From Saccharibacter floricola DSM 15669 (lineage in GTDB: Bacteria > Pseudomonadota > Alphaproteobacteria > Acetobacterales > Acetobacteraceae), in assembly GCF_000378165.1 (NCBI RefSeq), contig NZ_KB899334.1, positions 124,001 to 188,000 of the forward strand: DNA of 64,000 nucleotides, given 5' to 3'. Shown piece after piece: positions 8,205-62,072 of the stretch. The notes under the pieces are model-generated. The model was not told where the DNA came from and did no database searches. It saw nothing but the letters and a program-made list of their open reading frames with translations. A program made the position numbers and the translations under genes. Every line of letters begins with the position of its first letter. Position 1 is the first letter of the stretch.

Positions 8205-9012
8205 CGATTACGCCCTGACATCAGACAATCAGCACCTCCTGTTAACAAACCGGATAACCAAGACAGCCGGAGCCGTGAAAGATCGACCTATTTTTGCCGA
8301 ACCTACACTTTGCGAATCGGTATTGACCCGCATTCGCCAGCATGGGCTGCGCGTTGTGGGAGACGTGCATGGTGATCTCAACGCCTTTCGGCACGCCATC
8401 GCAACCCAACGTTATGTCTTACAATTGGGCGATCTTGTGGATCACGGCCCCGATAGCGCTGGCGTGCTTGAAGTCATGCTGGATCTTATTGAGACTCAAC
8501 GAGGGATGTTCGTCCTTGGAAACCATGACCGCAAACTCGGCCGTGCTTTAGAGGGACGACGACTGAGACGCGATCCACCGCTTGAGGAAACACTTAGGCA
8601 AATTAGCCTTTCTGCTCAGGATGATCTCGCTCAACGTGCACATGAAGCTATTCGTCATGCACCGGCTTGGCAGCGATTAAATAATATTATTTTTGTCCAT
8701 GGCGGCTTTCACACAACCATGCTGTCATCGCCACCTCCTCCAACGGGACTGGACGATATGTCTCCTCCGCTTTCCCGTGCGCTATTCGGTGAAACAACGA
8801 GCCGTATGCAGCCTGATGGGTACCCTGAGCGCCGCCTAAGCTGGATTAACCGCATCCCTGCAGGTATCACCGTTTATGTCGGTCATGACCGCCGCTCTTA
8901 TGACGGAAGGCCATGGCACCGTACTGGACGTTTGGGTGGAAAAGCGGTCTTTATGGATCTTGGCGCCGGAAAAGGCGGCCATTTAGCATGGATTGACCTC
9001 AATGACTTCTGA
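8176..9012 (+). CDS. PPP-type metallophosphatase (symmetrical Ap4A-hydrolase-like)
   Basis: Cytoplasmic calcineurin-like phosphoesterase of the PPP type. The metal-binding motifs are in order: GDVHG (62-66), GDLVDHG (85-91), GNHD (115-118), then VHGGF and the late YVGHD. The enzyme may cleave diadenosine tetraphosphate or a phosphoprotein; the substrate cannot be told. The start is uncertain. ATG 8176 gives 278 residues but overlaps smc by 29 bases and has no clear ribosome site. GTG 8275 (245 residues) lies just past the smc stop and nearer the conserved core, though its GGAG is only two bases away. It overlaps the chorismate mutase start by 11 bases, suggesting one transcript smc-phosphatase-aroQ. 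Confidence 0.85.
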   Translation: MKVSRWLTVDDYALTSDNQHLLLTNRITKTAGAVKDRPIFAEPTLCESVLTRIRQHGLRVVGDVHGDLNAFRHAIATQRYVLQLGDLVDHGPDSAGVLEVMLDLIETQRGMFVLGNHDRKLGRALEGRRLRRDPPLEETLRQISLSAQDDLAQRAHEAIRHAPAWQRLNNIIFVHGGFHTTMLSSPPPPTGLDDMSPPLSRALFGETTSRMQPDGYPERRLSWINRIPAGITVYVGHDRRSYDGRPWHRTGRLGGKAVFMDLGAGKGGHLAWIDLNDF

Positions 9013-9307
9013 GACAGCTGACTTCGCTCTTCAGCAGCTCCGCAACACGATTGATAATATCGACACAGCTCTTATTTGCTTGCTTGCAGAGCGCTTTAAA
9101 ACAACACAGACGGTCGGAGAGTTAAAAGCGCATTACCAAATTCCTGCGTCTGATCCCGAACGTGAAGCTCAACAAGTTGCTCGTCTTCGTCAGCTTGCTG
9201 AAAATGCCCAGCTTGATCCTGATTTTGCAGAACGTTTCTTTTCCTTTGTCGTGTCAGAAGTCATCGCTCATCATAAACGTATCGCTAGCTCTTTAGAGAA
9301 TGATTGA
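9002..9307 (+). CDS. Chorismate mutase, AroQ type
   Basis: 101-residue all-helical chorismate mutase, converting chorismate to prephenate on the way to phenylalanine and tyrosine. Features of the family are visible: an N-terminal LRNTIDNIDTALICLLAERF helix carrying the catalytic Arg, a KAHYQIPASDPERE loop with Lys and the D-x-x-R-E motif, and a C-terminal helix ending VVSEVIAHHKRI. It is a stand-alone enzyme with no fused prephenate dehydratase or dehydrogenase. I chose ATG 9002, inside the end of the phosphatase gene (11-base overlap); a TTG at 8993 would add three residues. Chorismate synthase (aroC) and shikimate dehydrogenase (aroE) are elsewhere in the window. Confidence 0.9.
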   Translation: MTSETADFALQQLRNTIDNIDTALICLLAERFKTTQTVGELKAHYQIPASDPEREAQQVARLRQLAENAQLDPDFAERFFSFVVSEVIAHHKRIASSLEND

Positions 9308-9371
9308 TCTGCTCATATTTTTGTGATCACTCCTTCACGTAAACGTGTTGGATCATAGGTTTTTTTACTTT

Positions 9372-9399
9372 TTGACGCTCCCCTAATTGAAAAGATAAT
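9372..9399 (+). promoter_or_regulatory. Sigma70-type promoter of sldBA
   Basis: TTGACG (9372-9377) and GATAAT (9394-9399) match the -35 and -10 consensus at five of six positions each, with a 16-base spacer. They sit in the only gap before sldB. The predicted start of transcription, near 9406, leaves a leader of about 16 bases before GTG 9422. Confidence 0.65.
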
Positions 9400-9421
9400 A
9401 TTTTCAGTTGTGAGGTCGTCA

Positions 9422-9805
9422 GTGATTTCTTCTTCTCCCTCCCATCGTTCTCGGTGGAAGGCCGCTCCTATTCTCATAGGAATACTTGCGGCGGTTATTT
9501 TGGTCTTTGGCCTTTATTTTGTCATATTAGGTGCAGAGCTCGCGTGGCTCGGTGGTTCTTGGTATTACGTGCTGTGCGGCATCCTCCTTACAGCTTCAGG
9601 TCTGCTCATGCTCCGTCAACAAGCACTTGGCGGTTGGCTTTACCTGCTTGCATGGTTTTTAACGATCCCTTGGACAATTTACGAAGTTGGATTCGATTTC
9701 TGGGGATGGCTCCCTCGCCTCTTAGGCCCCACTCTAATTGCCATCGCTGTCGCGTTCAGCCTTCTCACACTATCCCGTATCCAGAAAGAAGCACGCCATG
9801 CGTAA
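9422..9805 (+). CDS. sldB: SldB, membrane subunit of PQQ-dependent polyol dehydrogenase
   Basis: 127-residue integral membrane protein with about five hydrophobic helices, homologous to the N-terminal membrane domain of the PQQ glucose dehydrogenase. Key stretches are GGSWYYVLCGILL, GGWLYLLAWFLTIPW and TIYEVGFDFWGWLPR. In Gluconobacter the 126-residue SldB holds the catalytic SldA on the periplasmic face and passes electrons to ubiquinone. GTG 9422 is preferred because TGAGG lies six bases upstream and the length then matches SldB; GTG 9410 would add four residues and nearly abut the transcription start. It overlaps the sldA start by eight bases. The two-gene arrangement is the natural SldBA form, not a broken glucose dehydrogenase. 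Confidence 0.85.
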   Translation: MISSSPSHRSRWKAAPILIGILAAVILVFGLYFVILGAELAWLGGSWYYVLCGILLTASGLLMLRQQALGGWLYLLAWFLTIPWTIYEVGFDFWGWLPRLLGPTLIAIAVAFSLLTLSRIQKEARHA

Positions 9806-11990
9806 GAACTTTTTTCTTGCAACACTTCTTGCAAGCAGCGCATCCATCTCCCTTTCAGCTTTTGCACAAATCCCACCATCTTCTGAGCCTCCCGGCCTAG
9901 AGCAGCAAGACTCTTCTCATGACCAGCCTTACCATTCCCTGTATCCTCCACCGTTACCAACAACCCCCCAACCGTTAAGCGTCAACCCCGCTCATCTTCC
10001 CGATATCAGTGAAATACCTGCTGACCAACTACCAACAATGGCCCCACAACAAGGAGCACACCCCCAAGAAAACGACTGGCCTGTTTACGGGCATGACGAC
10101 CACCAAAGCCGGTTTTCACCTCTTAAACAAATTACACCTGAGAATGTCGCACAGCTGAAACGTACCTTCATCTATCATACGGGAAGTTTAGTGCCGAAGG
10201 GGAAAGCCAATAAATGGGCTCCCGAAACCACTCCAATTAAGGTTGGTTCCTCACTTTATTTATGCTCCGCTACCAATGATATGATGCGCGTTGACGCCAC
10301 CAATGGACAGGAAAAATGGCATTTTCATTCAGGCGAGAAATATGAAAGCATTCCGTACACAGCTGCCTGCAAAGGGGTAACCTATTTTACCTCCTCCCTC
10401 GTTCCTGAAGGCCAGCCCTGCCATAATCGTATTATGGAAGCGACACTTGATGAACGTTTGATTCAGGTTGATGCAGATACAGGGGCTCTCTGCCCAATGT
10501 TTGGCCATGACGGGCAAGTTAACCTCATGCAAGGCATCGGATGGTCTGTGCCCGGTTTTGTCGCCATGACGACACCACCTCCGGTGATCAATGGTGTTGC
10601 TGTCGTCAATCATGAGGTTCTTGATGGACAGCGGCGTTGGGCTCCTTCTGGTGTCATCCGCGGCTATGACGCCGAAAGCGGTAAATTCGTTTGGGCGTGG
10701 GATGTCAATAATCCTGACGATCACCACCAACCTGCACAAGACAAATTCTATAGCCGCGGCACACCCAACTCATGGGCCGCTATGACAGGCGATAATGAAC
10801 TTGGGCTCGTTTACGTTCCTACGGGGAATTCAGCCGTTGATTATTACAGCGCCTTACGCACTGATGCTGAAAATAAAGTCTCATCCTCCGTCGTTGCTCT
10901 TGATGTCAAAACGGGCTCCCCACGCTGGGTTTTTCAGACGGTTCACAAAGATGTATGGGACTATGACATTGGCTCCCAAGCAACGCTATTTGACGCTCAT
11001 GCACCAGATGGAAGCATCATTCCCGCTCTTATCATGCCAACAAAACGCGGTCAGACATTCATCTTAGACAGACGCACCGGTAAGCCTCTCCCCAACTTCC
11101 CTGTCGTTGAAAAAGCAGCTCCCTCGCCTGGTTTTGTGCCCGGTGATACGCGCGCGCCAACACAACCATGGTCTGTTGCTGTACCACGGCTTGGCTTCCC
11201 CAAACTCAGAGAAGCTGACATGTGGGGCATGTCGCCTCTGGATCAACTTTTCTGCCGTATTAAATTCCGTCGTGCCGCCTATACAGGTGAATTTACGCCT
11301 CCTCGTCTCGATAAACCATGGATCGAATATCCCGGTTATAATGGAGGAAGCGACTGGGGCAGTATGGCCTATGACCCTCAAACAGGCATTCTTCTTGCCA
11401 ATTGGAATAATCTCCCCATGTATGATGCGCTCGTCACACGCAGACAAGCAGATCATCTTGGCTTAGTATCTATCGACTCTCCGAGCTACAAACCCGGAGG
11501 TGGCGGTGCTGAAGGAAACGGAGCTCAAGCCGATACGCCCTACGGCATCATTGTTGCGCCATTCTGGAACCAATTTACTAAAATGATGTGCAACCAACCT
11601 CCTTACGGTATGATCACAGCAATTAATCTCAAAACACATTCTGTGCTATGGCAGCGGCCATTAGGAACAGCACGCGCTAATGGCCCTTGGGGCTTGCCAA
11701 CTGGCATGCCGTTTACCATTGGTACACCCAATAATGGTGGCCCAATCATTACCGCCGGTGGTGTCGCCTTTGTAGCCGCAACAACGGATAATCTTCTCCA
11801 TGCTATAGATATGAAATCCGGCAAAGAACTATGGCATGATGTTCTGCCCGGAGGCGGTCAAACGACCCCAATGACCTATGCTGTTAATGGACGCCAATAT
11901 GTTGCCGTCATGGCAGGAGGGCACCATTTCATGGGAACACCTATCTCTGATTCTCTTGTTGTTTATGCGCTCCCTGAAACCACTCATTAA
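9798..11990 (+). CDS. sldA: SldA, PQQ-dependent polyol (glycerol/sorbitol) dehydrogenase catalytic subunit
   Basis: 730-residue periplasmic quinoprotein with an eight-bladed propeller fold. A signal peptide occupies residues 1-26 (MRKNFFLATLLASS... SAFA). The propeller begins at WPVYGHDDHQSRFSPL; typical stretches are APETTPIKVG, YTAACKGVTYF, GQRRWAPSGVIRGYD, SRGTPNSWA, VHKDVWDYDIGSQ and a C-terminal GGHHFMGTPISDSLVVYALP. It oxidises polyols such as glycerol, sorbitol, gluconate or arabitol at the cell surface, with electrons going to ubiquinone through SldB. ATG 9798 lies within the end of sldB and directly precedes the signal peptide; the frame extends upstream to 9738 but only inside sldB. 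The family shares similarity with glucose dehydrogenase, but the separate small subunit favours SldA. Actual substrate preference is inference. Confidence 0.85.
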   Translation: MRKNFFLATLLASSASISLSAFAQIPPSSEPPGLEQQDSSHDQPYHSLYPPPLPTTPQPLSVNPAHLPDISEIPADQLPTMAPQQGAHPQENDWPVYGHDDHQSRFSPLKQITPENVAQLKRTFIYHTGSLVPKGKANKWAPETTPIKVGSSLYLCSATNDMMRVDATNGQEKWHFHSGEKYESIPYTAACKGVTYFTSSLVPEGQPCHNRIMEATLDERLIQVDADTGALCPMFGHDGQVNLMQGIGWSVPGFVAMTTPPPVINGVAVVNHEVLDGQRRWAPSGVIRGYDAESGKFVWAWDVNNPDDHHQPAQDKFYSRGTPNSWAAMTGDNELGLVYVPTGNSAVDYYSALRTDAENKVSSSVVALDVKTGSPRWVFQTVHKDVWDYDIGSQATLFDAHAPDGSIIPALIMPTKRGQTFILDRRTGKPLPNFPVVEKAAPSPGFVPGDTRAPTQPWSVAVPRLGFPKLREADMWGMSPLDQLFCRIKFRRAAYTGEFTPPRLDKPWIEYPGYNGGSDWGSMAYDPQTGILLANWNNLPMYDALVTRRQADHLGLVSIDSPSYKPGGGGAEGNGAQADTPYGIIVAPFWNQFTKMMCNQPPYGMITAINLKTHSVLWQRPLGTARANGPWGLPTGMPFTIGTPNNGGPIITAGGVAFVAATTDNLLHAIDMKSGKELWHDVLPGGGQTTPMTYAVNGRQYVAVMAGGHHFMGTPISDSLVVYALPETTH

Positions 11991-54503: not shown

Positions 54504-55514
54504 TTAGACCGTACAGCGATCCCCAAGCAGGCCAACCGCCAAGGCATAATAATCGGACGGATTATAGGCACGCAGCACCCGAAAATTACGATACACTAAA
54601 AAGGCTTGCCCACCGGATCCATCAGGCTGCACAAGTTTAGCCAAACGCTGTGATGGCTCAAGAGCACGACCATTGAGCTCACGCACACCCGCACTGGCCC
54701 AGTCCGCTACCGTACGCTGGGGAGCATGCCGTGACGTTGACGCGCCTTTGCTCCCATCATTCAAGGTTTCACCTAGAGGAACTGTGACTTCTTCGCCCCA
54801 AGGCTCTCCAAACACCCACCCACTTTTAGCAAGATAATTCGCTGCTGAGGCGAAAATATCCGCTTGCGTATTCCAAATATCTTTACGTCCATCACCATTA
54901 CCATCGGCAGCAAAGCGTAGATACGCGCTCGGCATAAACTGAACCTGCCCCATCGCCCCCGCATAGCTCCCCAGCATACGCGCTGGGGCAATTTGCCCTT
55001 GACCTAAAATAATCAACGCTTTGATAAGTTCTTGACGGAAAAATGCCGCTCGCCGTCCATCAAAGCCCAGCGTCGCGAGGGCATCAATCACGTTGAAGCT
55101 CCCTTGGCTCGCACCAAAACCCGATTCCAGCCCCCATATTCCCATCACAGCCGCTGAATTACACCCAAATCGCTGGCAAATACTGTCCATATTTTGGCGC
55201 ATATCTTGGTATAAACGCTGCCCTTGCTGGCACCGCTCATCGCGCACAACACGCGCTCTATATTGGCTCCAGCTCAACGTAAATTCTGGCTGATGTCGGT
55301 CTCTTTTCAGGACTTTTTGATTAGGCTGCCTTGTACACGCAAAAGCCTCATCTAATATTTGGCTTGCCACGCCCTGCTCTAAAGCATCACGACGAACGGA
55401 TGCACAAAAAGCCTGATAACTCTTAGCCTTATGGGCTGTCATAGAACGTGCCCAGCCGCTCTGCGATGCCGCCACACTGCCCACCAAAGCGCCCAGAAAA
55501 TATCGCCGCTCCAT
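54504..55514 (-). CDS. Lytic murein transglycosylase (MltB family)
   Basis: 336-residue periplasmic enzyme that cleaves the MurNAc-GlcNAc bond. Signal: MERRYFLGALVGSVAASQSGWA, also with a double arginine. The catalytic Glu is E130 in GIWGLESGFG, and GAMGQVQFMPSAYLRFAADGNGDGRKDIW is the family block. A C-terminal segment resembles a remnant peptidoglycan-binding region. No lipobox, so it differs from E. coli MltB. It is divergent from the VTT protein and 57 bases ahead of the dacA-like gene. Confidence 0.92.
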   Translation of the reverse strand: MERRYFLGALVGSVAASQSGWARSMTAHKAKSYQAFCASVRRDALEQGVASQILDEAFACTRQPNQKVLKRDRHQPEFTLSWSQYRARVVRDERCQQGQRLYQDMRQNMDSICQRFGCNSAAVMGIWGLESGFGASQGSFNVIDALATLGFDGRRAAFFRQELIKALIILGQGQIAPARMLGSYAGAMGQVQFMPSAYLRFAADGNGDGRKDIWNTQADIFASAANYLAKSGWVFGEPWGEEVTVPLGETLNDGSKGASTSRHAPQRTVADWASAGVRELNGRALEPSQRLAKLVQPDGSGGQAFLVYRNFRVLRAYNPSDYYALAVGLLGDRCTV

Positions 55515-55590: not shown

Positions 55591-56226
55591 TTGTCGAACC
55601 TTCCCCAACATGGCACAATCTCCGGCCATGTTCACAATATTGTCTCTCTCATGATCCGTCTTGGCCCTATTCTGGCATCTCAACCTCTTTGGTTAAAGGC
55701 ACTCAGCATCATTGTTGGTACCTTCATTTTAGAAGATGTCGCAACGGTTCTCTCAGCCATTGCAACGCAAGCTCATCAAATCAACCTTTTTGCAGCACTT
55801 TGTGCGCTTTATGTTGGTGTTGTCCTCGGTGACCTTGGGCTTTACCTGCTCGGGCTCGGTGGGGCTCATTGGCCATTTCTAAAACGCTTTTTAACCCTCC
55901 CTAGTGAGAAACAAGCCCAGCGCTGGTTTTCGCGCAATATCATCAAAGTCGTTGCTATTTCTCGTTTTGTCCCTGGGGCACGCCTTCCTTTGTACACAGC
56001 CTGTGGCTTCTTTAAGGCGCCTTTCCTTTCTTTTGCTTTAACCGCCATTGTAGCAACGCTCGTCTGGACCAGCTTGCTGTTTGCGCTGTCGCTGCGTATT
56101 GGAGGGTGGCTTCTTGCCCATCAGGGCGGATGGCGTTGGGCCGGTATTATCGGCTTTGTTTTATGTATCGTTCTCATGGGCCGTTTTATTGCCCATATAC
56201 AACGTGTGAGTTCAGTAGATTCATGA
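55591..56226 (+). CDS. VTT-domain (DedA-like) membrane protein
   Basis: Integral membrane protein of up to 211 residues with about five hydrophobic segments. The VTT/DedA core is seen in FILEDVATVLSAIA, GVVLGDLGLYLLGLGG and the signature ISRFVPGARLPLYTACGFF. Such proteins flip polyprenyl phosphate or phospholipid headgroups in several bacteria; here the substrate is unknown. The TTG start at 55591 gives 211 residues; ATG 55651 gives 191 and retains the whole core. Its stop overlaps the start of an ATP-grasp gene (ATGA 56223-56226), so the two products are made together. Confidence 0.85.
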   Translation: MSNLPQHGTISGHVHNIVSLMIRLGPILASQPLWLKALSIIVGTFILEDVATVLSAIATQAHQINLFAALCALYVGVVLGDLGLYLLGLGGAHWPFLKRFLTLPSEKQAQRWFSRNIIKVVAISRFVPGARLPLYTACGFFKAPFLSFALTAIVATLVWTSLLFALSLRIGGWLLAHQGGWRWAGIIGFVLCIVLMGRFIAHIQRVSSVDS

Positions 56227-57287
56227 CCGATAAGACCAAAGAACAGAACCCTCTCTCCCTGTTCGAATTCTGGCCAGGATCGGTCTTCTACACGCCTATT
56301 GTCCTGTACTGGATCATCATGGGCCTGCGCTATCGTGATCTCAGCGTCGCTACAGCCGCAAACCCTCGTATTGAAACGGGCGGCCTGTGTGGGGAAAGTA
56401 AAAGCTCTATCTTGGATATGGCCGGCCCTATCGCACGGGAAGCCATCGCTCCTTATCGCGTTTTTTATAACGGCCCTACAGCGTTACAAGAAGTGCTTGA
56501 TGCCATGGATGATATGGGCACCACATTTCCTGTCGTTGTTAAGCCCGATATTGGCTGCAATGGTACGGGAGTGCGTCTTATCGCAGACCGCGCCATGCTC
56601 GAACATGTGCTGCCACTCTTCCCAACAGGTGTGGCTCTGTTGGTTCAGGAGCTTATTACAGCCCCGATTGAGGCTGGCATTTTCTACATTCGCCACCCGC
56701 ATGAGGAAAAGGGCCGCATCACGTCCCTTACGTATAAAGAGGCCCCTCTCCTGATAGGCGATGGTACGTCAACGCTTCATGAACTTGTGATGCAAGACCC
56801 ACGCATGAGCCAAGTACCTCAGCTTTATCTTCCACGCCTTGAAGGGCAAGAGCGGTCGGTTCTCACAAAAGGAGAAAAATTCCCGCTCGTTTTCGCAGGG
56901 AACCATTGCAAAGGTTCTATCTTCCGCGATGGACGCAATGACATTACAGAGGCCCTTACGAAGCGCATTAACGCGATCATGACCGATATTCCGGATTTTC
57001 ACTTCGGCCGCATTGACGTCAAAGCCACCTCTGTTGAGGCATTACGTCGCGGAGAAGGATTTTCCATTATTGAAATTAACGGGGTTGGATCTGAGGCGAT
57101 TCATATATGGGATCGTCGCACCACTTTATGGGAAGCGTATAGAACGCAATTCTACCATTATCGTCAGACCTTTCTCATTGGAGCCGCCAAGAAGAAAGAG
57201 GGTTGGAAAAGCTCTGGGGCTTTCTCCATGCTGTTTTCATGGCTCAAGCAACGGCGCCTTCTCTCTTCCTATCCAACGAATGATTGA
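56223..57287 (+). CDS. ATP-grasp family ligase of unknown substrate
   Basis: 354-residue soluble or membrane-associated protein. A hydrophobic segment near 20-32 (VFYTPIVLYWIIMGL) precedes the ATP-grasp fold: FPVVVKPDIGCNGTGVRLI (ATP-binding lysine and glycine loop), VQELI, then TSLTYKEAPLLIGDGTSTL and the metal-binding end FSIIEINGVGSEA. It resembles D-Ala-D-Ala ligase-like and carboxylate-amine ligases, but the acceptor is not predictable. ATG 56223 overlaps the VTT gene by four bases; the frame continues upstream to 56106 inside that gene. It converges on mlaD. Confidence 0.85.
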   Translation: MTDKTKEQNPLSLFEFWPGSVFYTPIVLYWIIMGLRYRDLSVATAANPRIETGGLCGESKSSILDMAGPIAREAIAPYRVFYNGPTALQEVLDAMDDMGTTFPVVVKPDIGCNGTGVRLIADRAMLEHVLPLFPTGVALLVQELITAPIEAGIFYIRHPHEEKGRITSLTYKEAPLLIGDGTSTLHELVMQDPRMSQVPQLYLPRLEGQERSVLTKGEKFPLVFAGNHCKGSIFRDGRNDITEALTKRINAIMTDIPDFHFGRIDVKATSVEALRRGEGFSIIEINGVGSEAIHIWDRRTTLWEAYRTQFYHYRQTFLIGAAKKKEGWKSSGAFSMLFSWLKQRRLLSSYPTND

Positions 57288-57327: not shown

Positions 57328-57786
57328 TTACAGCTTGCCGGCGTTGAAAATATAATTGCTAATTTGCTGTTCAAGCGACAGCAACGGCCGGGCATCTATG
57401 ATCGTGCTACCCTCTGCCAAAAAAGACGCACTCTTCCCCGGTAGAATTTTCAAAACATTGTCACCCGACATCGTTGGGGCCCCGATGGTCACCGCTGTAT
57501 CTGAAGGCAGGCGGATGGATTTTTCAACATCAAAGCGCACATCCGCAATCGCAAGCTCTGAGTTCAGCGTAATCGCTTCAACATGCCCAACGCTCACTCC
57601 GCCCAGCTCAACCCCCGCCCCTTTAGCCAAGCCGTTAGCTGAGGGAAAAGACGCATGATACGTTGCTAAGTCACCAACTGGCCCTTGCGATAGGCGTGCT
57701 CCATACAGCAAAAAACCGCCAGCTAAGCACAGCACTGCAGCACTTGCTAAGAAAGCTCCCCCACGTCCCTTGATCATGCTACGCAT
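57328..57786 (-). CDS. mlaD: MlaD, MCE-domain lipid transport protein
   Basis: 152-residue single-pass inner-membrane protein. TM helix ~10-32 (GAFLASAAVLCLAGGFLLYG) and one MCE domain: ATYHASFPSANGLAKGAGVELGGVSVGHVEAITL, with the pore loop region PGKSASFLAEG. It forms the hexameric ring of the MlaFEDB phospholipid transporter. ATG 57786 has GAGGG upstream and fits MlaD; the frame up to 57867 adds unrelated residues. mlaFEBC are not adjacent. Confidence 0.88.
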   Translation of the reverse strand: MRSMIKGRGGAFLASAAVLCLAGGFLLYGARLSQGPVGDLATYHASFPSANGLAKGAGVELGGVSVGHVEAITLNSELAIADVRFDVEKSIRLPSDTAVTIGAPTMSGDNVLKILPGKSASFLAEGSTIIDARPLLSLEQQISNYIFNAGKL

Positions 57787-57931
57787 TCTCTTGGCCCTCA
57801 CATTAACACTCAATATCTCACACGATGCTTCGTTCCGTGAAGAGTAACCATCATCTGACACGGTCAAGCTTTTGACACCCTACCATGTCCCGTCAATAAT
57901 AGCATGAGCAAAGATGGAGTATGCGACCCCT

Positions 57932-58871: not shown

Positions 58872-60404
58872 ATGACTGCTCCCCATAGCTCCTCTCGCTC
58901 TTCATCATCACGCCGCAAAACAATGGAGCAAATAGAAGGGACGACTGCCTCACAAGGGCTTAAACGCAACCTCACTGCCATTCAATTACTGGTCATGGGG
59001 GTCGGCACCACAGTTGGAGCAGGCGTTTATGTCATGACAGGCACAGCCGCTGCCGAATATGCTGGGCCCGCCGTTCTCCTTTCATTTCTCATTGCCGCTG
59101 CAGCCTGTCTATTTACAGCCTTTTGTTATGGAGAGCTGGCCTCCTCCTTTCCTGTCTCTGGATCGGCCTATTCCTACGCATATCTTTCCATGGGTGAAAA
59201 AGCAGCTTGGGCTGTCGGATGGCTTATTTTACTAGAATATAGCGTCGCAGGGACGGCGGTTGCGTCTGGTCTATCAGGATATCTCGTCTCCTTATTGGAA
59301 ACCTGTCACATCCATCTCTCCCCTATCGTCACGCAATCCACCCTTCAACCTCGTCCCGGCTCTCATGGCAGTGCTCTTACAGTCCATCATGGGCTCAATC
59401 TTGTCGGCTTCATAGTAGTTATGATTATGGGGACGCTTCTCGCTCGTGGAAATGAAGGGTCATCGCGTTTTAATAGCCTACTCGTCGCGCTCAAGGTCGG
59501 TGTATTAGGTCTTTTCTTCATCATAGGCCTAAGCGCTATCCACCCTGCTTATTGGCACCCTTTCATTCCCCCTTCCCAGGGGAATTTTCACTTCGGCATT
59601 GCTGGGGTTTTTCGCGCTGCGTCGATTATCTTCTTCGCCTATGGTGGTTTTGAAATCGTCTCAACAGCTTCAGCAGAAGCACGCAATCCCACACGAGACG
59701 TTCCGATTGGCATTATTGGCAGTCTCATTATCTGCACACTCATTTACTGTGCCATCGCTGCTGTGTTGCTCGGGATTGTCCCTTATCACGATCTTGATGT
59801 TGCTGACCCGCTTGCTGTTGCCACCAAAGTCATGGGCAAACCTTGGCTCGCTCTCTTCGTGAACACAGGAGCAACCATCGGCCTTTGCTCTGTTTTGCTC
59901 GGACTGCTCTATGCTGCATCACGCGTTCTGCTTACCATTGGGAATGATGGGCTTATTCCGCGTCTATTTTGCCATATCCATCCACGCCTCAAAACGCCAT
60001 GGCGCGGCACAATGGTACTCAGCCTCATCATGGGAAGCATGACCGCAACCCTCCCCATCGCCCTGATTGGGGATCTACTCTGTATCGGCACGACACTTGC
60101 TTTTGCGATGGTCTGTTTTACCGTGATCTGGCAACGTAATTACGCACCTAATACCCCACGTCCCTTCCGTGTTCCCTTAGGTGGAATCCGCATCAAAGGT
60201 TTTTGGCTTGGCACCGTCCCATCCTTAGGAATCTTCTGCTGCTTTGTGATGATTGCCCCTTTGTTTTTAAACATGGCTCATGCCATTTTAACCGGAAACC
60301 CCATCCCTCTTCTGATCTTACTGATCTACCTCGCTTTAGGGGCCGGAACCTACATTCTTTACGGAAGAAAGCATTCTCTCATGGCCTCACAACACCGTTC
60401 TTAA
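58872..60404 (+). CDS. APC-family amino-acid permease (copy 1)
   Basis: 510-residue 12-helix permease of the cationic amino-acid/polyamine-type APC branch. Helix 1 motif GVGTTVGAGVYVMTGTAAAEYAGPAV and the helix 6 segment FFAYGGFEIVSTASAEARNPTRD are diagnostic. It is a close paralogue of the next gene, matching through most of its length, so they arose by tandem duplication. Substrate not predictable. The cytosolic N-terminus is serine-rich (SSSRSSSSRRKTMEQI). It starts 97 bases after uppP. Confidence 0.9.
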   Translation: MTAPHSSSRSSSSRRKTMEQIEGTTASQGLKRNLTAIQLLVMGVGTTVGAGVYVMTGTAAAEYAGPAVLLSFLIAAAACLFTAFCYGELASSFPVSGSAYSYAYLSMGEKAAWAVGWLILLEYSVAGTAVASGLSGYLVSLLETCHIHLSPIVTQSTLQPRPGSHGSALTVHHGLNLVGFIVVMIMGTLLARGNEGSSRFNSLLVALKVGVLGLFFIIGLSAIHPAYWHPFIPPSQGNFHFGIAGVFRAASIIFFAYGGFEIVSTASAEARNPTRDVPIGIIGSLIICTLIYCAIAAVLLGIVPYHDLDVADPLAVATKVMGKPWLALFVNTGATIGLCSVLLGLLYAASRVLLTIGNDGLIPRLFCHIHPRLKTPWRGTMVLSLIMGSMTATLPIALIGDLLCIGTTLAFAMVCFTVIWQRNYAPNTPRPFRVPLGGIRIKGFWLGTVPSLGIFCCFVMIAPLFLNMAHAILTGNPIPLLILLIYLALGAGTYILYGRKHSLMASQHRS

Positions 60405-60548
60405 AAACGTGATAGATAGAATCTTTCGCGCATAGAATCGCCTGCTCAATACTCTCTAGGCCATTTACAGAACGACAAGACTGCGCCATGAGACAAGGCT
60501 TTCTACGCCTTTATGGCTCACCGCTTTATGAGACAGCACCTAAAATCC

Positions 60549-62072
60549 ATGACCAGCCCTGCCCCTTCCCAGAACAGTCGCCGGAAAACTCTGGAACATA
60601 TTGCGGCGGAAAACAACAACCACCCCCTCAAGCGCAGCCTTACCGCCACGCAACTTCTCTTTATGGGTGTAGGCACGACCGTTGGGGCCGGTGTTTACGT
60701 CATGACGGGGACAGCGGCAGCCAATTATGCTGGCCCCTCTATTCTACTATCGTTTTTAATTGCAGCAGCCGCCTGCCTCTTTACCGCTCTATGTTATGGC
60801 GAGCTTGCCTCCTCTTTCCCTGTTTCTGGCTCGGCCTATTCCTACGCCTATATCTCCATGGGGGAAAAAGCCGCTTGGACAGTTGGCTGGCTTCTGTTGT
60901 TGGAATACGGCATTTCTTGCACAGGGGTCGCCTCAGGTTTATCGGGGTATCTCACATCACTCCTTGATACATTCAACCTCCATATCCCTGCTTTTCTTAC
61001 CCACTCAACACTCCAGCCGCTCCCCGGTGGGGACGATACCGTTCTTACCTATCATTGGCAGATAGACCTTGTTGGTCTCCTTGCAGTATGCGCCGTTACA
61101 GCCCTTCTTGTGCGAGGCGTGGAAGAATCAGCTCGCTTTAATACGGTCGTCGTCGGTTTGAAAGTGGGAGTATTGTTGCTATTTCTCATCATGGGCGTCA
61201 GCTTTGTTAATCCTGCTAACTGGCACCCTTTTATTCCTCCGTCTGAAGGAAACTTTCATTACGGCATCACCGGCATTTTCCGTGCGGCTTCTATTATGTT
61301 TTTTGCTTATGCTGGGTTTGAGGCCGTCTCTACTGCCTCTGCCGAGGCACGCAATCCAACACGAGATATTCCCATCGGGATTATCGGCAGCCTTGTTATA
61401 TGCACCATTATTTATGTTGCCGTTGCTGCTGTCCTTCTGGGTATTGTCCCCTATCGTAGCCTCAACGTGGCAGACCCTTTGGCTATAGCCACAAAAACCA
61501 TGCACAAGCCGTGGCTAGCCCTTCTTGTCAATTCAGGTGCTACGATTGGCCTTTGCTCCGTTCTTCTTGGCCTCATGTATGGGCAAACGCGCGTTCTTCT
61601 GACAGTGGGACGAGACCGCCTTATCCCTGAAATATTCAGCCGTATTCATCCCAAATTCCGCACGCCTTGGCTAGGTACACTCATCATTGGGGCTCTCGTC
61701 GGCTTCATGACGGCAACCATGCCGATTGATATTATCAGCGATCTTGTCTCTATCGGCACCGCTCTAGCTTTTGCAATTGTCTGCTTCACCGTTATCTGGC
61801 AGCGCAATCAAGCACCAGATGCAACACGCCCCTTTAAAGTCCCTCTCGGCGGTTTCACGATTAAAGGCATATGGGTTGGTATTGTGCCAACATTGGGCAT
61901 CGTTTTCTGTATCCTGATGGCTCTACCACTCACCATCAATATGTTTCACGCTGTTATAATGGGGAACCCAATCCCCCTTATTCTGATCGTCACATATGTT
62001 GCGCTTGGTGTGCTTACCTACCAATGTTACGGCAAAAAAAATTCGGTTATGGCCCAAAATAAAGAGCCATAA
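60549..62072 (+). CDS. APC-family amino-acid permease (copy 2)
   Basis: 507-residue paralogue of the previous gene with the same helix 1 and helix 6 motifs (GVGTTVGAGVYVMTGTAAANYAGPSI, FFAYAGFEAVSTASAEARN). The cytosolic tails, the loop after helix 3 (GYLTSLLDTFNLH) and helix 5-6 segment differ most, so the substrates may have diverged. ATG 60549 was chosen since it aligns with the start of copy 1 (MTSPAP versus MTAPHS); the frame opens at 60513. There is a 144-base gap with no gene. Confidence 0.9.
   Translation: MTSPAPSQNSRRKTLEHIAAENNNHPLKRSLTATQLLFMGVGTTVGAGVYVMTGTAAANYAGPSILLSFLIAAAACLFTALCYGELASSFPVSGSAYSYAYISMGEKAAWTVGWLLLLEYGISCTGVASGLSGYLTSLLDTFNLHIPAFLTHSTLQPLPGGDDTVLTYHWQIDLVGLLAVCAVTALLVRGVEESARFNTVVVGLKVGVLLLFLIMGVSFVNPANWHPFIPPSEGNFHYGITGIFRAASIMFFAYAGFEAVSTASAEARNPTRDIPIGIIGSLVICTIIYVAVAAVLLGIVPYRSLNVADPLAIATKTMHKPWLALLVNSGATIGLCSVLLGLMYGQTRVLLTVGRDRLIPEIFSRIHPKFRTPWLGTLIIGALVGFMTATMPIDIISDLVSIGTALAFAIVCFTVIWQRNQAPDATRPFKVPLGGFTIKGIWVGIVPTLGIVFCILMALPLTINMFHAVIMGNPIPLILIVTYVALGVLTYQCYGKKNSVMAQNKEP

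Follow-up and report, generated by a model that had tools for sequence, protein, structure and literature searches.

The window analyzed here, a 64,000 nt stretch of the genome of Saccharibacter floricola DSM 15669 (contig NZ_KB899334.1), carries two overlapping CDS that specify a VTT/DedA-type membrane protein and an ATP-grasp enzyme (Table 1). The VTT frame ends with a TGA codon at 56224-56226, and the ATP-grasp frame runs from the ATG at 56223 to a stop codon at 57285-57287. The ATGA overlap reported in the first-pass annotation can be read directly in the sequence, an identical 4-base overlap joins the corresponding genes in relatives L046, L047, L048 and L052, and the arrangement suggests that the two genes are translationally coupled. 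The earlier placement of the VTT start at TTG 55591, 60 bases upstream of ATG 55651, would give a protein of 211 aa, but three relatives (L005, L008 and L009) have a GTG at the codon matching ATG 55651, and the VTT frame of L008 and L009 offers no start codon before this GTG. The start codons of these relatives favor ATG 55651, which is probably the true start.

Table 1. Features of the VTT/ATP-grasp pair in the window, and TANGO2-like genes beside the pair in relatives.
Feature	Coordinates	Strand	Remarks
VTT/DedA-type membrane protein	55651..56226	+	Likely start ATG 55651, 191 aa; Pfam VTT_dom
ATGA overlap of VTT stop and ATP-grasp start	56223..56226	+	Read in the sequence
ATP-grasp amide ligase, candidate aminolipid ligase, 354 aa	56223..57287	+	Fold model, conserved residues
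Codons of short hydrophobic helix, ATP-grasp residues 21-35	56283..56327	+	Mean Kyte-Doolittle value 1.87 over 15 residues
TANGO2-like genes beside VTT/ATP-grasp	L046:10295-11044; L119:5435-6148		Present in 21 further loci

The genes on either side (54504-55514 and 57328-57867) lie on the opposite strand to the pair, so the view that the unit includes no other gene holds for the window, but it does not hold for many relatives (see below). By eye, the wider surroundings include genes resembling those for murein transglycosylase, carboxypeptidase, MCE and UppP proteins. Downstream of the pair are two similar genes in tandem (58872-60404 and 60513-62072) that look by eye like amino-acid permease genes, and relatives of this tandem recur at the corresponding position in many loci of Acetobacteraceae.

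The smaller protein belongs to the DedA/VTT family, with a match to VTT_dom (PF09335) of 45 bits, above the cut-off of 33.9. Hallmarks of this family are an acidic pair and a motif of the R-x-x-x-G-x-R type. Numbered from TTG 55591, residues E48-D49, D81, R125 and R131 are invariant in 14/14 aligned rows, and the stretch R125-F-x-P-G-x-R131, also invariant in all 14, fits the motif. Described DedA/VTT proteins such as UptA resemble the window protein in having a VTT domain, above the cut-off here, but the UptA equivalog of NCBIfam is matched at only 33.7 bits (cut-off 250), and the window protein also differs in being coupled to a ligase, to which its counterparts are fused in other lineages. 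We know of no described DedA protein that is coupled or fused to a ligase. As its structural model (pLDDT 71) retrieved no PDB match at E ≤ 0.001, the claim to a VTT fold is limited to the Pfam assignment.

The AF2 model of the larger protein (pLDDT 87, pTM 0.85) has an ATP-grasp fold, with Z ≥ 5 for 850/999 aligned chains. Cyanophycin synthetase (7wae_A) is the best match to this predicted structure (Z 15.7, rmsd 5.0, 280 residues, 16% identity), followed by GshF, carbamoyl phosphate synthetase, LysX/ArgX, RimK and DcsG, in a ranking that re-ordered Foldseek's own matches and so does not exclude families absent from them. By analogy with other members of the superfamily, a Lys, an Asp, a Glu and an Asn bind ATP and Mg, and the corresponding residues are conserved in nearly all aligned homologues (K107, 69/69; D265, 69/69; E284, 68/69; N286, 67/69), so that the ligase looks intact. 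None of the curated Pfam or NCBIfam cut-offs was reached. The best NCBIfam match, TIGR00768 (rimK_fam), scored 30.3 bits against 143.4, the RimK domain PF08443 15.6 against 21, and cyanophycin synthetase (TIGR02068) 20.3 against 850. The enzyme thus reaches the curated cut-off of no family with a soluble substrate; membership in such a family had been named in the first-pass annotation as fatal to its proposal. Its likeness to RimK, LysX/ArgX and the ATP-grasp module of cyanophycin synthetase lies in the fold and the conserved Lys/Asp/Glu/Asn set; it differs in scoring far below the cut-offs and in being partnered with a membrane protein.

Several more specific assignments were considered and rejected. 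Cyanophycin-type polymer synthesis has a near fold, but the family score is far below the cut-off. Some plasmid records label homologues as D-alanine--D-alanine ligase, but the window protein matched no Ddl model in Pfam or NCBIfam at E ≤ 1; Ddl structures do occur among the fold matches, below the best ones, as the superfamily predicts, and one of them reaches E 0.9 by sequence. A role in anti-phage defence was discarded, as neither protein matched a PADLOC family at E ≤ 0.01.

An N-terminal hydrophobic segment had also been noted for the ligase. It is present, but restricted to residues 21-35, where the model has a helix (residues 19-36) covering the stretch; 15 residues are short for a membrane span, so the helix is perhaps membrane-contacting.

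A scan of contigs retrieved 18 relatives. Pseudomonadota, mostly Acetobacteraceae, account for 17 of them, and the remaining one (L019) is from Verrucomicrobiota. In all 17 Pseudomonadota relatives the VTT gene lies directly upstream of the ATP-grasp gene. L019 is truncated at the edge of its contig and has, in frame with the ATP-grasp domain, a hydrophobic stretch resembling the end of a VTT protein, which scores 0 bits with the VTT profile and was counted as lacking VTT. Profile searches found the ATP-grasp gene in 62/150 genomes of the window's family, in 15/398 Pseudomonadota genomes and in 29/288 Verrucomicrobiota genomes, some of the latter with fragments or weak matches only. One of the 15 was a weak match (G231, 42.6 bits, itself PF13444-positive) and was excluded, leaving 14 true carriers. 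Plasmid copies (28 records) occur in Paracoccus, Komagataeibacter, Azospirillum, Salinivibrio, Vibrio, Photobacterium and Variovorax.

Among 98 distinct ATP-grasp homologues scoring at least 100 bits, 86 are either fused to VTT or immediately preceded by a VTT gene, a count drawn from the loci of the best matches (at most 30 per search) in which weak copies are under-sampled. The pairing spans Acetobacteraceae, other Pseudomonadota and Verrucomicrobiota, far beyond close strains, confinement to which would by the first-pass annotation have refuted the proposal, and with this many paired genes in distant lineages chance adjacency can be set aside. The 12 homologues lacking an upstream VTT gene are L135-L141 (seven Acetobacteraceae copies), L019, L051 (genome G385), L127 (genome G489), L039 and L036. 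Five of the seven Acetobacteraceae copies are in genomes that carry another copy, and those of G702 and G686 are not. Copies similar to the VTT-less subfamily L135-L138 occur on Komagataeibacter plasmids (L165:2672-9014); the one on pKOB1 adjoins two genes, for a SAM methyltransferase and for an iron-containing redox enzyme, and a gene encoding a lysophospholipid acyltransferase is located some 4-5 kb from it. In Paracoccus denitrificans (L036), alpha/beta hydrolase, VTT and ATP-grasp genes are separate neighbors, the VTT gene lying about 1 kb off on the opposite strand, beyond the hydrolase gene. In Variovorax (L039), a frame that by eye resembles the lysophospholipid transporter LplT lies downstream of the VTT-less ATP-grasp gene (9001-10035).

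Gene layouts were drawn for the loci in which the anchor gene was kept (69/77, one of the 69 being the weak L057); L014, L036, L039, L044, L140, L141, L145 and L150 are absent from the layouts and included in the 98-gene counts. VTT and ATP-grasp share one frame in Azospirillum sp. B510 (590 aa) and L056 (574 aa), and in 19/20 of the mapped Verrucomicrobiota loci (L115-L134). An alpha/beta hydrolase precedes the other two parts in 11 of the 20, giving triple fusions (L119-L121, L123-L126, L130, L131, L133 and L134); domains were assigned by Pfam on L119, L133, L118 and L035. The fusions, together with the translational overlap, argue that the VTT and ATP-grasp parts act as one unit.

Outside the window's family the pair is often part of a longer operon. 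Twelve of the mapped loci form one Pseudomonadota group, consisting of L037 (Vibrio), L038 (Salinivibrio), L046-L049 and L051-L056, the last two sets from outside the window's class. The usual gene order is VTT, ATP-grasp, DinB-like, TANGO2-like, YHS, in some loci DoxX-like, and last a gene for a protein of some 585 aa, the intergenic gaps being a few bases (-4, 19, 2, 0, 10 and 12 in L046). The last protein of the L046 operon has PlsC-type and OlsB-type domains and aligns with the OlsF model along almost its entire length (435 bits). All of the 12 loci except L038 encode an OlsF-like protein within or next to the operon. In L051 the gene order is altered and VTT is missing, and in L056 the OlsF-like gene is upstream of the VTT-ATP-grasp fusion. 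These labels indicate likeness, as the NCBI equivalog cut-offs were missed by the OlsF-like proteins (435, 404 and 399 bits against 620) and by an OlsB-like protein (154.5 against 350).

A comparable linkage is seen in Verrucomicrobiota, where at least 6/25 genomes have an OlsB/OlsF-type gene within 4 kb of the pair; in the other 19, no PF13444 match lies within 10 kb among the matches listed, and some of the genes are near contig ends. These 25 come from the 29 genomes with matches, after leaving out G450 (weak) and G472, G519 and G621 (fragments). G413 has two PF13444 matches, of which the one listed is on a different contig than the pair. In the mapped Acetobacteraceae loci no OlsB or OlsF gene is linked to the pair.

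TANGO2-like genes occur in 23/69 mapped loci, 11 in the Vibrio-containing group and 12 in Verrucomicrobiota; the two proteins tested exceeded the Pfam cut-off (29.6 and 39.8 bits against 22.6). YHS-like genes are found in 13/69. The DinB-like label is weak (21 bits against 24.8 for one protein, no family for another), and DoxX-like was assigned by eye, the single protein tested matching nothing in Pfam. The idea of a closed two-gene system finds no support: elsewhere the unit takes in TANGO2-like, DinB-like and YHS genes as well as OlsF- or OlsB/PlsC-like ones, and many Verrucomicrobiota add an alpha/beta hydrolase by fusion.

In a tree of the ATP-grasp homologues, from which the near-copies L005, L007 and L153 were left out, the main Acetobacteraceae clade contains 27 rows, including close kin such as Acidocella (support 100/99). 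It adjoins a group of 19 rows (83/61) made up of the 12 Vibrio-group loci, four Acetobacteraceae copies without VTT, two further loci from Alphaproteobacteria, and L115. With midpoint rooting, 20 Verrucomicrobiota rows lie across a strong branch from both. Since OlsB/OlsF linkage is found on both sides of this branch, it is most simply regarded as ancestral, and the window copy would then have kept the reaction and lost the linkage.

Co-occurrence at the level of whole genomes was examined with PF13444, the GNAT domain of OlsB and OlsF. All 14 true carriers among the Pseudomonadota have it, against 238/398 genomes overall. For Verrucomicrobiota the figures are 24/29 genomes with any match against 164/288 overall, and 21/22 of those matching at 248 bits or more, the exception being G658; the matched genomes lacking the domain are G472, G547, G573, G621 and G658. 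Rough hypergeometric tails, which ignore shared ancestry, are 0.0006 (14/14), 0.00004 (21/22) and 0.002 (24/29). Within the window's family the comparison is uninformative because all six sampled members are positive, although three of them lack the pair. In the window genome the only PF13444 match (E ≤ 0.001) is on contig C3 and the pair is on C2, so OlsF/OlsBA genes are not linked to the pair there. The OlsB-like gene on C3 (L163:3542-4477) lies between genes that by eye are Fur-like and Lnt-like, and no OlsA-like gene directly adjoins it. PF13444 also matches proteins in Bacteroides, and the glycine N-acyltransferase GlsB is a sister model. As the domain is not specific for ornithine and the equivalog cut-offs were missed, the headgroup may be glycine or another amino acid, and 'ornithine' is used below as an assumption resting on the OlsF and OlsB models.

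ATP-grasp enzymes form an acyl phosphate from a carboxylate and pass it to an amine, producing an amide. Ornithine lipids have a free carboxylate, and enzymes known to modify them include hydroxylases and an N-methyltransferase. The best reading of the pair, which we hold with about even confidence, is an unnamed, widespread ligase-flippase module for aminolipid tailoring. The ATP-grasp protein would be a membrane-associated amide ligase acting at the inner leaflet, where it would activate a carboxylate with ATP and join it to an amine, one of the two partners being an ornithine-type aminolipid; the lipid's free carboxylate would be the simplest substrate group. The VTT partner, made by coupled translation, would carry the tailored lipid across the inner membrane. 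Support comes from the overlap, the predicted fold, the intact residues, the pairing and fusion of the genes, and the operon linkage in two phyla. For the window copy we infer retention of this function, as well as the group activated, the amine added and the flipping. The original suggestion of lipid modification followed by flipping gains a context in OlsF/OlsB-type operons, and its substrate and flipping steps stay inferential. OlsF- or OlsB/PlsC-like genes are in or beside the pair's operon in one Pseudomonadota group and in some Verrucomicrobiota, but OlsF and OlsBA build the lipid, whereas an ATP-dependent ligase with a membrane protein is outside both described pathways. Like the known modification enzymes, the pair would act on the finished ornithine lipid. 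Taurine transfer is also given as an ornithine-lipid modification in excerpts of PMC12493201 and PMC11001654 that name no enzyme for it.

Cerilipin carries its taurine in amide linkage on the ornithine carboxyl. A narrower and tentative proposal, which we consider doubtful, is that the ATP-grasp protein is the missing cerilipin ligase, attaching taurine to the ornithine-lipid carboxyl, and that the VTT protein flips the product. This ornithine-taurine lipid comes from an acetic acid bacterium, Gluconobacter cerinus (excerpts of PMC4484230, PMC6669457 and PMC4929514), and ornithine-taurine is among the headgroups given in excerpts of PMC12493201 and PMC10191378, the latter likewise naming no enzyme. 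Among the matches listed in a search of open-licence literature, no source, as far as its text was available, gave an enzyme for ornithine lipid and taurine, and none linked ornithine lipid, aminolipid, OlsF or OlsB with ATP-grasp, TANGO2 or DedA; a narrow search of the same literature found no source for Gluconobacter oxydans with ornithine lipid. In the sample of the window's family, 14 genomes encode a PQQ-ADH sharing at least 82% identity with 8gy2_A, which we take to be the alcohol dehydrogenase of Gluconobacter oxydans, and all 14 carry the ATP-grasp gene, against 62/150 overall; this fits, and does not show, the presence of the pair in Gluconobacter.

It is also conceivable, if unlikely, that the Acetobacteraceae pair tailors a different lipid, such as a hopanoid, lipid A or an undecaprenyl-linked intermediate, and that the aminolipid link applies elsewhere only. 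The envelope-type genes recognized by eye around the window pair would fit such a role, as would the unlinked OlsB and the weak similarity of the VTT protein to UptA, an undecaprenyl-phosphate transporter, but the immediate neighbors are on the opposite strand, a gene order common to the family may be plain ancestry, and the Acetobacteraceae clade adjoins the OlsF-operon group in the tree. A substrate that is not a lipid seems rather improbable. The fold matches (cyanophycin synthetase, GshF, LysX/ArgX, RimK and DcsG) and the weak sequence similarity to the rimK_fam and cyanophycin synthetase models would be expected of an enzyme making a soluble peptide or polymer, with the VTT protein exporting it or serving general membrane stress; against this, the curated cut-offs were all missed by a wide margin, and the VTT fusions and OlsF-like operons point to a membrane substrate.

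The frequency of TANGO2-like and YHS-like genes raises a further reading, that of a heme/redox homeostasis operon with a TANGO2-like, YHS and DoxX-like core, in which OlsF and the pair are membrane-stress passengers. Bacterial TANGO2 homologues are reported as heme-trafficking proteins in excerpts of PMC10470608. We judge this improbable, since the neighbors in L019 and L056 include an OlsB/PlsC- or OlsF-like gene and no TANGO2-like gene, no Acetobacteraceae locus belongs to the TANGO2 cluster, and an ATP-grasp ligase has no obvious role in heme traffic. Least credible, and very improbable, is that the ligase forms the lipid's own fatty acid-amino acid amide in parallel to OlsB, with no tailoring: amide formation from carboxylates is established ATP-grasp chemistry, but all 14 true Pseudomonadota carriers already have a PF13444 protein, and the operons place the ligase near OlsF-like genes that are expected to do this step already. 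A precedent for such an activity is the planctomycete OlsH, which is unrelated to OlsB and performs the step (excerpts of PMC12493201).

Excerpts of PMC11001654 and PMC12186959 estimate that roughly half of the sequenced bacterial species could make ornithine lipids, and those of PMC12186959 describe a putative four-gene operon in Vibrio cholerae (VCA0649-VCA0646) that ends in an OlsF. As an aminolipid-tailoring module, a conserved ligase-flippase pair in aminolipid operons would be a direct candidate for the genes of headgroup tailoring, and would offer a testable cargo for a DedA/VTT protein. The occurrence of TANGO2-like genes next to the pair, often along with OlsF-like genes, may also indicate an unexpected genetic link between TANGO2 and aminolipid synthesis. 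If the tentative cerilipin assignment were true, it would account for a lipid known since 1976, assign a specific aminolipid as cargo to a DedA protein, and predict cerilipin or kindred lipids in Vibrionaceae and Verrucomicrobiota.
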